Shown here: one piece after another, positions 17,471 through 23,835 of the stretch | How positions within the stretch are numbered: the first letter of the stretch is position 1 | Layout of the letters: each line of letters starts with the position of its first letter | Source: Collinsella sp. An2 | GTDB taxonomy: Bacteria > Actinomycetota > Coriobacteriia > Coriobacteriales > Coriobacteriaceae | NCBI RefSeq assembly: GCF_002160065.1 | Contig: NZ_NFJW01000002.1 | Span: forward strand, 186,001 to 250,000 | Direction: 5' to 3' | DNA: 64,000 nt | Notes under the pieces: model-generated | Seen by the model: only the letters and a program-made list of their open reading frames with translations | What the model was told of the DNA's origin: nothing | Databases searched by the model: none | Made by a program: the position numbers and the translations under genes

Positions 17471-18502
17471 ATGAGTTTCCGCGATAACCTTCAGCACCTG
17501 CGCGCGTCGCGCAACATGACCCAGGAGCAACTTGCCATGTTGCTCGGCGTTTCCCGCCAGTCGGTGACAAAGTGGGAAGCCGAAAAGAGCTATCCCGAGA
17601 TGGATAAGCTGCTCAAGCTTTGTCAGATTTTTGAATGCAGCCTGGACGACCTCGTGCAGGGCGACCTTACCGGCCGCGCTCCCGTTCCCGAAGCGGCTGT
17701 TCCCGCAGGCCCGCCCACCGATGTCTGCGGCTACGACGAGCATCAGCGCCGTCTGGCCTGGCAGCTTCCCACCGGAGTGTCGATCATCTTGGCGCTTGTG
17801 GGCATCGCATTCCTTTTCGAGGGCCGTTTTCCGCTCATGGGCGGAGACGCCGACGTTCTCATGATCGCCATCATCCTTGTCGGTGTTCTTGCAGGGCTTG
17901 CTTTTGTCATTCCTGCCGGCATGGAACATTCGGCGTTCATGAGGGCTCATCCGTATATCGAGGACTTTTACACCGATGAAGACCGCGCCCTCGCTCGTCG
18001 GTCAATGGCCCGCGGCACGGTTGCCGGCATCGCATGCATCTTTGTTGGCGTCATCTGCCTCATGGTGCTTGGCGAGTCTCGCGCGACGGAGCGGGAGGGT
18101 CTTTGCCTTTTGCTGCTGTGCATCGCGCTTGGCGTGTGGCTCATCGTTCATAACGGCATGCTTCTGGGCCGTACGAACATTGCCGAATATAACAAGAGCG
18201 CGGCCGAAGAGCTTGAGATGGATGATCTGGTCAACGCCAAGCTGGACGCCGAGATCAAAGATGCCCTGATCGATCGCAAGCGGTCGAGCGACAAGCTGGG
18301 CGCCATCTGCGGATCCATCATGATTGTGGCGACCATCATCGGCTTGGTGCTGCTGTTTGCCCCCGTGCTTACGAACGCCGATCCCGACACCTTTGAACCC
18401 CTGGGAACCTCGGCTGCCTGGTTCTGGATCGTGTGGCCCATCGGCGCGCTGATCTGCGGCATCGTTGCTCTGCTGATGAATGCGTTTGGAAAGCATGAAT
18501 AA
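17471..18502 (+). CDS. XRE-family helix-turn-helix protein with membrane domain
   Basis: 343 residues. Residues 1-65 are a lambda-repressor-type HTH (NLQHLRASRNMTQEQLAMLLGVSRQSVTKWE). A Pro/Ala linker follows, then about six hydrophobic segments in three pairs (for example GVSIILALVGIAFLFEG, LMIAIILVGVLAGLAFVI and MIVATIIGLVLLFAPVL). A polar helical stretch with DDLVNAKLDAEIKDALIDRKRSSDKLG separates the later segments. Membrane-tethered XRE regulators often sense envelope stress or control nearby ABC transporters, so it may act on the next locus; this is inferred. The ATG at 17471 is preferred to upstream in-frame starts because the HTH begins there. Confidence 0.88.
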   Translation: MSFRDNLQHLRASRNMTQEQLAMLLGVSRQSVTKWEAEKSYPEMDKLLKLCQIFECSLDDLVQGDLTGRAPVPEAAVPAGPPTDVCGYDEHQRRLAWQLPTGVSIILALVGIAFLFEGRFPLMGGDADVLMIAIILVGVLAGLAFVIPAGMEHSAFMRAHPYIEDFYTDEDRALARRSMARGTVAGIACIFVGVICLMVLGESRATEREGLCLLLLCIALGVWLIVHNGMLLGRTNIAEYNKSAAEELEMDDLVNAKLDAEIKDALIDRKRSSDKLGAICGSIMIVATIIGLVLLFAPVLTNADPDTFEPLGTSAAWFWIVWPIGALICGIVALLMNAFGKHE

Positions 18503-18503
18503 C

Positions 18504-18542
18504 GCGCCTGTTGACCGCTTGAAAGACATGAGCGGCAGGCGC
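18504..18542 (+). other. hairpin after the XRE gene
   Basis: GCGCCTG (18504-18510) pairs with CAGGCGC (18536-18542), and CCGCT pairs with AGCGG inside after a TTGA bulge. It has no T-run. A second palindrome, TCACAT-N7-ATGTGA, lies at about 18614-18632 before the next gene. Confidence 0.45.
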
Positions 18543-18680
18543 ATGATGCCCGCATGCTCTTTGCTGCTCGCACCGATGCCGCTCCGTTTCATTTCACGAC
18601 CGTTCGGCGGGACTCACATCTTCTGAATGTGATGCCGGGTAGCATGGTGTATATGCCGAGCGAATCGAGGGGGTGCGACG

Positions 18681-20549
18681 ATGTGCCGCATGCGCGATGT
18701 ATTGCGCAACGTGCTGTCGCACCCTGTGTTGCTCATCACGATAATGCTTTCGGCGCTGATATACCTGCTGCCCGCGATGTCGAGTCGATATGGCGGGCTT
18801 TCTGCCGGTGCTGTTCAGCCTGCTGCGACCCTGCCGCAGGGAGTTGAACAGGGTCTAGAAGCTACGTACCGTGATTACCTTGCCAATCTCCGACTCATGC
18901 AGTCAATTGTGCGCACGCGCGGAAGCGACGCCTCTGTTGAGCGGGCGTGGAAGCATCTTTCCGAGTCGACAACCATGCTTGAGAACGCCTTGTTCGCAGA
19001 CAGTCCGTCGGAGCGTCTTAGGGCAATCGCCACATACTACGAATATCTTGCCGACCAGCAGGTAAGTGGCGCATCACGTAGCGGCCTGTTATCGAATGCC
19101 GCGTTTTTTCGTGCGGTTGCAAACCTTGAACAGCCGGTGTTTTATGACCAGGCCGGCCGTATGCCGGTGGTGGTGTATATCACTTCCAACCAGTATGCGC
19201 TTGAGCAATCGCTGGTTTGGGTTGGCGCATGGCGACCGGATGACCAGGGCCTTAACAGAACGTCGGGCTGTTTAGAGTTCTTGCTGTGGATGGTGCCGCT
19301 TGCTGTAGCGAGCGTCTTGACGGCGACTGCCTACATGGCTGCAGAGGGCGCGACCCGGTATGCAAGACGTGGCGAGCGGAGCGTCCGGGCGAGCTCCAGC
19401 TCTATACTGTCCATAGCGCCTCGCGCTGTCATCTATGGCATGTTGGCGGGGCTGCTCGCTGCCGCGGCGGTGACGGCTCCAGCGGCAGCTTACGTTTATG
19501 GTGCGCAGGGTTGGGGAGACTTGGCATATCCTGTCGTGGTCTTTCGCTCATCGGGCAACTTCGTTGTTACGACCGTCGGCATGGTGCTCATGCAGCGCAT
19601 ACTGATGCTCGCAGCGGCGTCAGCTTGCTTTGCCTCCCTCACCGTTGGGCTGCGAACTTTGTTTGGCAGTATTGTTCCGGCATGTTTCGTTTCTGCTGCG
19701 GGTTTGGTGCTGGCATCTCAGCCCAGCTGGTATTCCAGGGAAAACCCCGTTCGAGACCTGGCATCTTTGATGCCTGTGTCCTATCTCGATCCATCGCATG
19801 CTACAGGCACCCAAACCAGCATGGTGTATTTTGATGCATCGAATACGCTGCCGAGCTTGAACGTCACCACAGGGCTCATGGTGTTTCTTGCCGCGACGAT
19901 AGCGATTCCAGCTGCGGCGTTGGTTGCCAAGAGGCTGGGGCGCGTCGTAAAACGATGGAGTGCCGGCGATCTTCGCGGTCCGCAGCCATGTTGGCATCAG
20001 CCATATGCGGCGCGATGGTTCCGCCTCGCTGCGGGCCTTGTCAAGACCGTTCCTTCCCGTGCGCCGGGCGATCCGCTAGCCCATGGTCCACCGCGGTGTA
20101 CATATGGTGCGGTGCAACATGAAGCAAGCGGCACGGTCAATGTTTCCAACGACGCTGTCATTTGGTTCCTTTCATACATCTTGTCCAACACAGGGGGTAT
20201 CTTTCGATGCTTCCTGATGGTTGTTGCGCCTTTTGGGTGGGGCAGGCGCCTCATGCCGTCTCGCGCTCCGCCGAAGCAGGCGGCCGAATCGAGATGTATG
20301 AAAGGAGTTGAAAATGAAGCAATCGTTGGTCCAGCCTCGTTTGGCTATGCGATATGCTGCGTGGCTCACACGTCGCCTTCTCGGGTCATGGGCGCTGTGG
20401 GCATTGATTGGTTGCATGGGCGTCGGGCTATGCGTGCTGATTGCGCTACCGGGATATGCGTTTCCGGTGGGTTCAATGTATCGCCGGGATACTATGGAGC
20501 TCATGGCAACGGACTATGCTGGTCAGTTCGCAGACGGATGGTTCGATGA
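18681..20549 (+). CDS. ABC-2-like permease, unit 1 of a triplicated family, with anomalous tail
   Basis: 622 residues by reading frame. TM1 (LLITIMLSALIYLL) is followed by about 165 extracellular, mostly helical residues. These carry a signature with FFR at 142-144, Pro152, Tyr155 and MP at 161-162. Further TM segments and GWGDLAYPVVV (277-287) follow. The same signature occurs twice in the next gene, so the two genes hold three paralogous permease units. The fold resembles ABC-2 permeases, but the substrate is unknown. After residue about 435 the protein becomes Arg/Pro-rich and overlaps the next gene by 236 bases in another frame, so the original stop may have been lost. GAGGGGGTG precedes the ATG. 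Confidence 0.7.
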   Translation: MCRMRDVLRNVLSHPVLLITIMLSALIYLLPAMSSRYGGLSAGAVQPAATLPQGVEQGLEATYRDYLANLRLMQSIVRTRGSDASVERAWKHLSESTTMLENALFADSPSERLRAIATYYEYLADQQVSGASRSGLLSNAAFFRAVANLEQPVFYDQAGRMPVVVYITSNQYALEQSLVWVGAWRPDDQGLNRTSGCLEFLLWMVPLAVASVLTATAYMAAEGATRYARRGERSVRASSSSILSIAPRAVIYGMLAGLLAAAAVTAPAAAYVYGAQGWGDLAYPVVVFRSSGNFVVTTVGMVLMQRILMLAAASACFASLTVGLRTLFGSIVPACFVSAAGLVLASQPSWYSRENPVRDLASLMPVSYLDPSHATGTQTSMVYFDASNTLPSLNVTTGLMVFLAATIAIPAAALVAKRLGRVVKRWSAGDLRGPQPCWHQPYAARWFRLAAGLVKTVPSRAPGDPLAHGPPRCTYGAVQHEASGTVNVSNDAVIWFLSYILSNTGGIFRCFLMVVAPFGWGRRLMPSRAPPKQAAESRCMKGVENEAIVGPASFGYAICCVAHTSPSRVMGAVGIDWLHGRRAMRADCATGICVSGGFNVSPGYYGAHGNGLCWSVRRRMVR

Positions 20550-22629
20550 GCCCTCGGGAAGTCCCGCAGAAGAGCGTGCAAAAGAGGTGGCACGCCGTAA
20601 CCTTTTGGCATATCAGGACTACCAGAGCGCAACAAACGATCGAGAGCGCCTCAAGGCTGTCGTTGAGCTCATTGACGTGATGGTTGAATATCCATCACGA
20701 GATATCCCCCGCGCAATGGTGCTGGCAGAGCAAGATTTCTATAGGCGCGTGATTGCAACGGATGACCCCCGTCTCTACGAATCAACGTCGGATATGCCGG
20801 CTCTTGAGCTCCTCGCGTATCGTTGGCAAGACGTTCTGTGGGTCCCCGGCCTGAGTCCGCTTCTAGCCATGATGGAGCCAGCGGATGATGCGGGGGCGTC
20901 GTCTGCGGGCCGATTCAGTGTAGAGGCGTATGCGGTTAGCGTGTTGCCAATTGCGATGGCCGTGTTGGGAGCGTATCGCTGGAGAGCTCATCGCCGTCTG
21001 CTCGAGTACTCACCGCTTGCTCGGGGGTGGCGCTCTGCAGCAGCGGTGGTCGTGTCTGCGCTTGCCGGATGGTGCTCTCAAGGAATGACCATGCTTCCTA
21101 CAGCGCTTGTTGCCCTGGTTCGAAACGGGTTGGGGGATCCAGCATGGCCGGTGGTGGTGTGTCGCGGAGCCGAGTTTATGACATACACCGTGGGAGAGGT
21201 GCTCATGCGCTCTGCCACTCTCACGCTTCTTGTCGCGGTTGTGTTTGCGTTGTTGTTCGAGGCGTCTCTATCCGTGTTTCGCAGAATGGCCCCAGGAGTT
21301 GTCGGCATGGCAGCGCTGATGGTCTTGCCGCTCATGCCTCACTATTACGACGAGTTATCTCCGGTTGGGGGCCTCTTGGCGTGGTTGCCGTCAACCTATT
21401 TGTATATTCCTAAGTTTGCCGGCGTGTGGTCGTATCTCATCAGCATATATAGCCCGCTTACATCGGATGTGCTGCTCGACCTACCTCAGGGTGTGCTGGT
21501 ATTGAGCGCTACTGCGGGGGTACTAGCTGTAGCGGTTATGATAGCGTCGTTGCTGCGATGGGCGCTTGGCTCCCACCATCGAGGGTCGTCCGATGGTTAT
21601 GGGCGCGGCGGATCTCATGTTGCGAGAAGAGGGCGCCCAGGTGATGTGCGCGGCGATGCTTTGGGCCCACGTACATCAGACTGTGCAAGCCCACGAAGCA
21701 AAGCCGATACAAGGGCGAGCGGCTACGTCGGGTCGTTGTTAGTGCTCGCTTGGCAGTTGCGGCTGCTTTGTTCAGGAGGATTGCTTCCGGCGATAATCGT
21801 GGGTACTGCTATCGTTTTTATGGCGCCGGGCATTATCTCGTTCCGAAGTGGCATGGACTCCTACACCCCCGACGCCTATATGGCTCGCTATCGCCAGCTG
21901 TATCGCTCCCAGTCGGCGGAAGATGCCTCTTCTATAGATTCTGAAGTGCTGAAAAGGGAGTTACAACTGTTGTCCCAGGCGGCATATGCACCCGACGAGC
22001 GCTCGTTTGCCCGTGCCGCGCTTACCTATGAAACATGGCGAGCAGAAGCGATGGGGTCGGGAAACCTGCCCGATGCCCTGCCTGCCGATGAAAAGGACGC
22101 ATCGTTGCGTGTCAAGTTCTATCGCCGGTTGCTTACGCTCAATGAGCCGTACATATACCTTTCAGCGGGGGAAATGCCGCTAGCTGTCTATGTGTCGTTT
22201 CTCGTGAGGCTTGTTTCGCCGCTTGCGGCGGTTGTCCCGGCGGGAATTGCCGCTGTGGAGCTTCTGGGATACATGAAGTCGGGTCTGTTTCGCCAAGCGC
22301 CTGTTGCGCGGCTGCAGCTCGCGGTGTCAACGGGCATGGCTCTCTTTATGGCTGTAACGCTTGCTCTCGTTCTTGCGGTTGTCGTTGCGATTGCTCCGCC
22401 TTTGCTGCGGCACGGAATTGGCGAATGGGGCTATCCCTGTCTTGTCCCCATAGCTATAGGTGAAGGCGTGATGCCGGCTGGGGAGGCGTTGGGAGTTGCC
22501 GTCCTATGGGCGTTGACGGCATGTGCCGCAGTGGCGCTTCTTACAGCTGCTGGGGTGTCGCTGCTGTGCCGAGACGGTCGGGTCAATTCTTGGTATGAAA
22601 GGGGTGCCCAGCATGCTCTCCATCCATAA
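20314..22629 (+). CDS. ABC-2-like permease, fused units 2 and 3
   Basis: 771 residues, ATG preceded by AAAGGAG. Unit 2 (about 1-410) has FYR at 142-144, Pro152, Tyr155, MP at 161-162 and GLGDPAWPVVV (272-282), spaced exactly like unit 1 in the signature. Residues about 415-473 are Arg/Gly/Ser-rich, unlike a normal linker. Unit 3 runs from about 474 (LLVLAWQLRLLCSGGLLPAII) with FYRR at 602-605 and GIGEWGYP (701-708). It stops about 65 residues short of unit 2's equivalent end. The stop overlaps the ATPase start by 17 bases. The fusion may result from a frameshift. Confidence 0.7.
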   Translation: MKQSLVQPRLAMRYAAWLTRRLLGSWALWALIGCMGVGLCVLIALPGYAFPVGSMYRRDTMELMATDYAGQFADGWFDEPSGSPAEERAKEVARRNLLAYQDYQSATNDRERLKAVVELIDVMVEYPSRDIPRAMVLAEQDFYRRVIATDDPRLYESTSDMPALELLAYRWQDVLWVPGLSPLLAMMEPADDAGASSAGRFSVEAYAVSVLPIAMAVLGAYRWRAHRRLLEYSPLARGWRSAAAVVVSALAGWCSQGMTMLPTALVALVRNGLGDPAWPVVVCRGAEFMTYTVGEVLMRSATLTLLVAVVFALLFEASLSVFRRMAPGVVGMAALMVLPLMPHYYDELSPVGGLLAWLPSTYLYIPKFAGVWSYLISIYSPLTSDVLLDLPQGVLVLSATAGVLAVAVMIASLLRWALGSHHRGSSDGYGRGGSHVARRGRPGDVRGDALGPRTSDCASPRSKADTRASGYVGSLLVLAWQLRLLCSGGLLPAIIVGTAIVFMAPGIISFRSGMDSYTPDAYMARYRQLYRSQSAEDASSIDSEVLKRELQLLSQAAYAPDERSFARAALTYETWRAEAMGSGNLPDALPADEKDASLRVKFYRRLLTLNEPYIYLSAGEMPLAVYVSFLVRLVSPLAAVVPAGIAAVELLGYMKSGLFRQAPVARLQLAVSTGMALFMAVTLALVLAVVVAIAPPLLRHGIGEWGYPCLVPIAIGEGVMPAGEALGVAVLWALTACAAVALLTAAGVSLLCRDGRVNSWYERGAQHALHP

Positions 22630-23302
22630 TCTTTCGCTGTCGTATGGGTCAAGAACGTTGTTCGACGGGGTTTCAGCTGTGATCGAGCCTGGCCGTATCG
22701 TCGGCCTCGTTGCTCCCAATGGATACGGCAAGACAACCTTGCTCAAGGCGATTGCCGGTATGGGAGGCGCGCGGATGCGCGGCGTCATCGATGTCGATGA
22801 TGTTAGGCCGCGGGACGGAAGCTCATTGCGGGCTGCGGCGTTCTATGCTCCCGGCGATGCTTCGTTGCTGTATCCCAGTCTTACGGCATGGGACCATCTT
22901 CGCATGGTACAGCATCTATGGCCAACCCGGTTGAATGCTGAAGATGTCGCTCGTAAATGTGGCATCGAATCATTTGCGCGCAAGCGTGTCCGGTCTCTTT
23001 CACAAGGTATGAAGCAGCAGCTTTCTCTTGCAATTGCCTATCTTACCGACGCGCGCTATCTGCTGCTAGACGAGCCCATGAATGCTCTCGATCCTACGAA
23101 CGTTCAGCTCAACTCGCGCATTTTGCGCGGTCTGGCGCGCCGTGGAAAGGGAATCGTCATGAGCTCACACATTCTGGATAACGTCGACCAGATAAGTGAC
23201 GAGGTGCTCTTCATTTACAACCAGCGTATTGTCTCGGGTGATTTGATACCTGGCGAACGTGCAGCCGATCGATATCGCCGGCTCTACTCAACGGGAGAAT
23301 AA
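22613..23302 (+). CDS. ABC transporter ATP-binding protein of the triple-permease locus
   Basis: 229 residues. Walker A is APNGYGKTT (first Gly replaced by Ala), the signature is LSQGMKQQLSLA, Walker B is RYLLLDEPMNALDP and the H-loop is MSSHILDN, so it should hydrolyse ATP. It energises the permease units upstream. The ATG at 22613 follows AAAGGGGTG and overlaps the permease stop, which indicates coupling. Its short length suits CcmA/NatA-type exporters without a regulatory C-domain. Confidence 0.9.
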   Translation: MLSIHNLSLSYGSRTLFDGVSAVIEPGRIVGLVAPNGYGKTTLLKAIAGMGGARMRGVIDVDDVRPRDGSSLRAAAFYAPGDASLLYPSLTAWDHLRMVQHLWPTRLNAEDVARKCGIESFARKRVRSLSQGMKQQLSLAIAYLTDARYLLLDEPMNALDPTNVQLNSRILRGLARRGKGIVMSSHILDNVDQISDEVLFIYNQRIVSGDLIPGERAADRYRRLYSTGE

Positions 23303-23529
23303 GAGGGACTTGTATGTGATGGTGACAAAGCGATTTGCACGTTATGCCCGAAGAGGGTCGGTTTTATACAGTATGGGTTACATATCATGCATGGTTTCCC
23401 GCCCACCTGCGATGCTGCACCGCCTACCTAAATGACGGCATGGAACGCTGCCGGCACGGGTTTACTAAAACTATCTGGTATATACAGGCCGGCGCCGCGG
23501 CATGGGGCGCCCGTAGCGAGGAGGTAATC

Positions 23530-23835
23530 ATGGGACTCAAAGCCGAGGGGGCACTTGATTTCGATTTCGAGGGGTTCCTGGGGTACCTGCGCTCCAAGAC
23601 TCGCGTATTCATGGACGTTGATGGTGGCGAATACTACGTCACCCATACCGACGGGTACTGGCGCGTACAGGATTGCTCCAAGCTGAACGACAAGGGCCGC
23701 TTTACCGATTGCTCCGAGCTCGTGACCACCATGCCCGAGCTTGTCGAACTGCCGTGGCACAACGGCAAGAGCATCCATGATCTGTTCCCCGATGCGACGT
23801 TCTATGAGTCTGTCCAGGAAGGATGGTCGCTCTAG
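23530..23835 (+). CDS. small acidic protein, unknown
   Basis: 101 residues, MGLKAEGALDFDFEGFLGYL onward. The start is set by GAGGAGGT five bases upstream; the longer upstream frame has no support. It is soluble, acidic and rich in Asp, Gly and aromatic residues, with DVDGGEYYVTHTDGYWRVQDC and a C-terminal PDATFYESVQEGWSL. There is no signal peptide or membrane segment. Not recognised. A terminator follows. The 227 bases before it, after the ATPase gene, show no other gene. Confidence 0.65.
   Translation: MGLKAEGALDFDFEGFLGYLRSKTRVFMDVDGGEYYVTHTDGYWRVQDCSKLNDKGRFTDCSELVTTMPELVELPWHNGKSIHDLFPDATFYESVQEGWSL

Follow-up and report, generated by a model that had tools for sequence, protein, structure and literature searches.

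An ABC transporter is held to need a pair of membrane halves, and the structural types now in use rest on that premise. Type V transporters are defined by a 6+6 arrangement of transmembrane (TM) helices (PMC8386196), and in their structures a cytoplasmic coupling helix touches the ATPase while re-entrant helices follow TM5 (PMC11971408; PMC8386196). In TarGH, a member of this type, TM5 and the subsequent re-entrant helices shape the extracellular side (PMC11971408). Four TM helices suffice for an ABC membrane half in the type VII transporter MacB (PMC8386196). Layouts with two permeases are already known, among them one in which a single ATPase serves a fused 12-TM protein; LugGH of Staphylococcus lugdunensis, which provides resistance to lugdunin, has this latter composition (PMC7927808). 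The cassette described here carries three homologous permease units (U1, U2, and U3) with six, six, and four TM helices, respectively, as judged by model and alignment, and thus departs from the 6+6 pattern that defines type V. A limited literature search returned no description of a 6+6+4 ABC system.

We analyzed a 64,000-nucleotide stretch of the Collinsella sp. An2 genome (the window; the features of the cassette lie on its forward strand). The ABC exporter cassette consists of three genes, encoding a permease (gene 1), a fused permease (gene 2), and an ATPase. Gene 1 (18681–20549) encodes U1, with six TM helices within residues 1–430, and a long cytoplasmic tail. Gene 2 (20314–22629) encodes two fused units: U2 (20314–21594), a complete six-TM permease according to model and profile alignment, and U3 (21712–22629), which is truncated to TM1, an extracellular domain, TM2, TM3, a hairpin, and TM4. 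The start of gene 2 should be placed at ATG 20314, which lies behind a good Shine–Dalgarno sequence (GAAAGGAG), rather than at TTG 20308, two codons upstream. Because it meets no stop codon, the gene 1 open reading frame extends 236 nt inside gene 2 in Collinsella sp. An2. The preliminary description had spoken of permease units in two reading frames; there are indeed two permease genes, but they are merely adjacent, with the gene 1 frame overrunning gene 2.

The ATPase, of the ABC-2 exporter type (22613–23302), starts within the end of gene 2, as had been noted. Its Walker A (APNGYGKTT), signature (LSQGMKQQ), Walker B (LLLDEP), and H-loop (SSH) are all intact in an alignment of seven systems. 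It matches PF00005 at 2e-21, and its best NCBIfam match is the lantibiotic-protection model TIGR03740 (1.8e-34), with a score of 119.4 bits that falls below the cut-off of 309.75.

The last conserved feature of gene 1 is the tail motif PGDPLAHGPP (residues 462–471; 20064–20093), which sits about 30 residues past TM6 of U1 and is kept, as GD[PH]LAHGPP, in eight of nine three-unit systems. Its codons differ at third positions, so selection acts on it as protein; the preservation of GDPLAHGPP in its own frame with synonymous codon changes also rules out a frameshift in gene 1. An Rfam scan of the tail-motif region for conserved RNA gave no credible match. Only C. tanakaei (G016) deviates among the nine: in place of the motif, its gene 1 (L036 7265–9532) has, following U1, additional hydrophobic sequence amounting to some six helices. 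This added sequence shows marginal similarity to the permease family (E about 0.001) and is possibly a degenerate fourth unit.

A shared signature, F[FY]R-x7-P-x2-Y-x5-MP, had been reported three times in the two permease genes, and we find it at residue 142 of gene 1 (FFR...P..Y.....MP in U1; 19104–19166) and, counting from ATG 20314, at residues 142 (U2; 20737–20799) and 602 (U3, residues 602–622; 22117–22179) of gene 2. The U1 and U2 copies fall at matching residue numbers, both spanning 142–162, and the signature was absent from all 20,000 shuffles. The second signature, G-x-G-[DE]-x-x-[YW]-P, likewise occurs once per unit as stated earlier: GWGDLAYP in U1 (residues 277–284; 19509–19532), GLGDPAWP in U2 (272–279; 21127–21150), and GIGEWGYP in U3 (701–708; 22414–22437). 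The structural models place the first signature where the extracellular domain ends, ahead of TM2, and the second in a predicted extracellular β-hairpin between TM3 and TM4. When loosened, both mark the whole permease family and not only the three-unit cassette.

Homology among the three units, which the preliminary description had asserted, was borne out by single-sequence BLAST (U1–U2 E 3e-14, U1–U3 3e-6, U2–U3 3e-5) and by hhalign comparison of profiles from the three-unit systems (U1–U2 100%, E 4e-39; U1–U3 99.0%; U2–U3 99.5%). A family profile made without U1 and U3, whose members are U2, single and fused permeases, and one double-type unit, detects U1 at 5e-39 and U3 at 3e-30. The locus had been called a triplicated, partly fused set; three homologous units are present and two are fused, but U3 is truncated, and in two-unit relatives the part most like U1 and U2 is the first half, and the part most like U3 the second.

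The AlphaFold2 model of gene 2 (mean pLDDT 75.8) places in U2, in order, TM1, an external four-helix bundle, TM2, TM3, the hairpin, TM4, TM5, a loop, and TM6, and in U3 the corresponding parts up to TM4, where the protein ends. The extracellular helical insert that had been described as a potential substrate-binding or immunity domain is present in every unit of the models. A helix is predicted ahead of TM1 in both proteins (residues 2–12 in gene 1, 2–23 in gene 2), and the TM5–TM6 loop modeled for both U1 and U2 contains short helices of low pLDDT. The seven best PDB matches of the gene 2 model in Foldseek are all chains of ABCG25, ABCG5/8, or NosFY/NosDFY (probability 0.72–0.97), at E values of 0.17–0.54 that are not significant; the gene 1 model is poor (pLDDT 56.6) and gave no Foldseek match. 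Fold and weak profile evidence point to membership of the family in the ABC-2/type V class.

The units are unequal in a consistent way. We distinguished nine three-unit systems, from Enorma, Collinsella, Coprousia, and Olsenella, and in all nine U3 is without TM5, the second extracellular loop, and TM6, ending at position 258–286 of the family profile, which is 384 positions long. Every unit of the doubles, like U1 and U2, reaches position 358–383; both units are thus complete in the two-unit systems of the same family, and the B (second) unit is full length where a separate U1 gene is absent (doubles in G020, G060, and the C. aerofaciens group). Gene 1 accompanies the truncated U3 in every one of the nine. 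Truncation as a gene-calling artefact was ruled out: the ATPase start overlies the gene 2 end, so that nothing is hidden downstream of U3 in the window, and the arrangement recurs in nine systems.

The coupling helix of ABCG-type structures is located in the TM2–TM3 loop, and by analogy this cytoplasmic loop may couple the present units to the ATPase. We defined a coupling motif in it as [LIFM]x4P, represented in the window by LLEYSP in U2 (residues 229–234; 20998–21015) and LFRQAP in U3 (residues 658–663; 22285–22302). The motif is found in U2 and U3 of all nine systems, in all six units of doubles, and in 21 of 28 single and fused permeases (the strict form is missing in the other seven), and in none of the nine U1s. 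From the alignments, the defects of U1 and U3 appear complementary, with U1 having lost the coupling motif and U3 the segment from TM5 to TM6. U1 may instead couple through the tail motif of gene 1. All nine U1s form one clade, as do all nine U3s, so truncation and motif loss may each have been a single event; the correlation across nine systems, with an N of about 1, reflects retention rather than repeated origin.

In comparisons of close pairs, most parts of the units and the ATPase either have a dN/dS far under 1 or differ too little for a judgement; the exceptions are the U3 TM helices in the pair G026–G005 (between 0.57 and about 1) and a few stretches that are short or saturated. For the U3 extracellular domain, the two informative pairs gave 0.11 (G026–G005) and 0.25, and in the pair G080–L062 the U3 TM helices are almost as constrained as this domain. 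Few parts of gene 2 are as well preserved as the TM5–TM6 loop of U2 (89–91% identity in the same two informative pairs). The U3 extracellular domain is under purifying selection in the close pairs compared, and U3 is retained rather than decaying. Arms-race divergence of the extracellular domain was not seen; in close pairs the domain is no less conserved than the TM helices.

Neither permease of the window matches any Pfam or NCBIfam model at E ≤ 10, and neither collection has a curated model for the family. Among 14 family members compared with curated models, we found one weak match to GldF and one to ABC2_membrane_3 (PF12698), the latter from a relative that scores 19.9 bits (E 4e-4), below the cut-off of 31.6, while the window units do not match; profile searches of PDB sequences retrieved no permease. 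The family occurs as a single permease with a separate ATPase, as a permease–ATPase fusion, as a fused double with an ATPase, and in the three-unit form. In a 296-genome sample of the phylum, all convincing matches are in Coriobacteriales; two further matches (E 7e-4) are short and doubtful. Recurrence in other Coriobacteriia, which had been put forward as a check, was seen: the three-unit form is present in Enorma, Candidatus Coprousia, Olsenella, and several Collinsella, contigs having been scanned with the ATPase as query. Elsewhere in the family, two adjoining permease–ATPase fusions (L177 99–2252 and 1291–4251) are probably a heterodimeric half-transporter pair, and the fused doubles L038 5320–7929 and L039 8680–11304 share the final residues SCVIRI behind an Arg-rich stretch.

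In the tree, U1, U2, and U3 each form one clade (100/99 or better), and the first halves of doubles stand beside U1 (89/81). The highest profile scores of U1 and U2 are to first halves (DA_G060, 142.0 bits, and DA_G020, 159.0 bits, respectively), and that of U3 is to a second half (DB_G020, 97.7 bits). As the simplest history we infer an ancestor with a two-unit fused permease (A–B) and an ATPase, in which the A unit would have been duplicated, one copy becoming the separate gene for U1 and the fused copy becoming U2; the B unit would then have lost its last two helices to become U3.

In Collinsella sp. An2, Enorma phocaeensis (G002), and C. tanakaei (G016), the cassette has an XRE regulator on one side and, on the other, the gene 23530, which encodes 101 residues; these two genes adjoin without it in G006, G014, G003, and G008. 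The gap (window 18502–23530; L162, L163, and L166) is a variable site that is empty in several relatives, holds the cassette in three, bears a scar in G001, and contains a CydDC-like ABC pair in G029. In G001, of the same genus, an ATPase relic of 37 residues (78% identical) sits directly behind the XRE gene as a deletion scar. Collinsella An268 retains only ATPase residues 40–225, the permease genes having been lost; there an upstream frame now enters the remaining ATPase segment (L075 7257–8576). The cassette has therefore been lost at least twice. In Olsenella and the Coprousia group it stands in two other contexts, and it is a self-contained module found at three unrelated chromosomal sites.

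The 23530 gene had been suggested as a conserved partner, a suggestion that does not hold, because 54 of 70 related genomes have it as a core gene and most of these are without an adjoining three-unit system. Its product (23530–23835) belongs to the Coriobacteriales core, has no Pfam family, and is 94% identical in the sister species; a conserved stretch (GGGTTTACTAAAA) lies upstream of the gene. The XRE regulator and the MarR–ABC–ABC genes were likewise rejected as partners; together with 23530 they make up a conserved block that is also found where the cassette is missing. The two ABC-exporter genes near most systems were also rejected, belonging to the ancestral block in Enorma and C. tanakaei and being other pairs elsewhere; the Collinsella sp. 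An2 genome has 17 ABC_membrane matches. Compared with G002, the flanking genes are 69–94% identical, the ATPase 62%, and the permeases 33–34%, a difference that suggests allele replacement. Identities also suggest replacement by transfer between Enorma and Olsenella, but an Enorma sister grouping is not rejected by AU tests (p 0.06, 0.14, and 0.39). No match indicated carriage of the cassette by a plasmid or phage, and an anti-phage defence search returned only generic ATPase and HTH matches. The flanks in the three contexts resemble housekeeping genes, ABC exporters, and regulators, and we saw no substrate or biosynthetic gene among them.

The explanation that we tentatively place ahead of the others, with somewhat less than even confidence, is a single pump in which U2 forms one half and U1 and U3 jointly form the other. 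The complex would contain two ATPases, one gene 2 protein, and one gene 1 protein. An ATPase dimer would dock on U2 and U3 by way of their coupling loops, and U1, without a recognizable coupling loop, would make good what U3 is missing, namely TM5, the extracellular loop, and TM6, such that U1 and U3 together make the second half beside the complete half, U2. The three extracellular helical domains would build a vestibule above the exit. The broader proposition, that two complementary partial permeases, each encoded by a different gene, combine into the second membrane half of a 6+6+4 transporter outside the type I–VII scheme, we regard as rather unlikely. As for its role, our guess is that the pump would extrude, or protect from, hydrophobic peptides or similar membrane-active compounds; we favor this because the ATPase is near TIGR03740, the module stands alone and is gained and lost, and no biosynthetic neighbors are visible.

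Alternatively, the two complete units, U1 and U2, could form a normal 6+6 type V transporter, with U3 tethered as an accessory for the sake of its extracellular domain. We consider this a serious possibility, if on balance an improbable one: both units have six TM helices and a conserved TM5–TM6 loop, and in the G026–G005 pair the U3 domain is constrained while its TM helices drift, but the coupling motif is missing from every U1 and kept in every U3, and the G080–L062 pair does not repeat the drift. It is also conceivable, and in our view distinctly unlikely, that gene 2 and the ATPase make a transporter with a shortened second half, gene 1 being a regulator, a sensor, or a second transporter that shares the ATPase. 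Two-unit relatives do occur without gene 1, the U1 gene bears its own conserved tail motif, and MacB makes a membrane half from four TM helices (PMC8386196). Against this, none of the nine systems with a truncated U3 is without gene 1, and U3 lacks TM5 and the re-entrant region that shape the extracellular side of TarGH (PMC11971408). Last, the cassette might be a degrading duplicate in which U3 and U1 erode, as its deletion in G001 and Collinsella An268 could suggest; this is very improbable and is largely refuted by purifying selection on most parts in close pairs and by frames that are open in nine systems.

The coexistence of single, double, and three-unit forms, with reciprocal losses in the three-unit form, offers a natural test that separates the parts for ATP coupling from the parts for the path. 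A further consequence would be the definition of an exporter family, so far without annotation, in Coriobacteriales of the gut, among them Collinsella aerofaciens, a species common in humans. Among known systems, LugGH is like the two-unit members of the family by layout, and differs from the three-unit cassette in that a third permease is absent and that it sits in a biosynthetic cluster (PMC7927808). LanFEG transporters (EpiFEG, GdmFEG, and NisFEG) share the ABC-2 type layout, and TIGR03740 is the model nearest to the window ATPase; they differ in having two separate permeases encoded beside lantibiotic genes, and the window ATPase scores below their threshold. To our knowledge, LanFEG permeases are without extracellular helical inserts. 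Type V transporters (ABCG2, ABCG5/8, TarGH, Wzm, and NosFY) resemble the cassette in the six TM helices of U1 and U2 and the cytoplasmic TM2–TM3 loop, and may do so in a predicted N-terminal interface helix and the TM5–TM6 extracellular loop; they provide its best PDB fold matches, at E values that are not significant. The cassette is unlike them in its 6+6+4 composition and in the large helical domain between TM1 and TM2.
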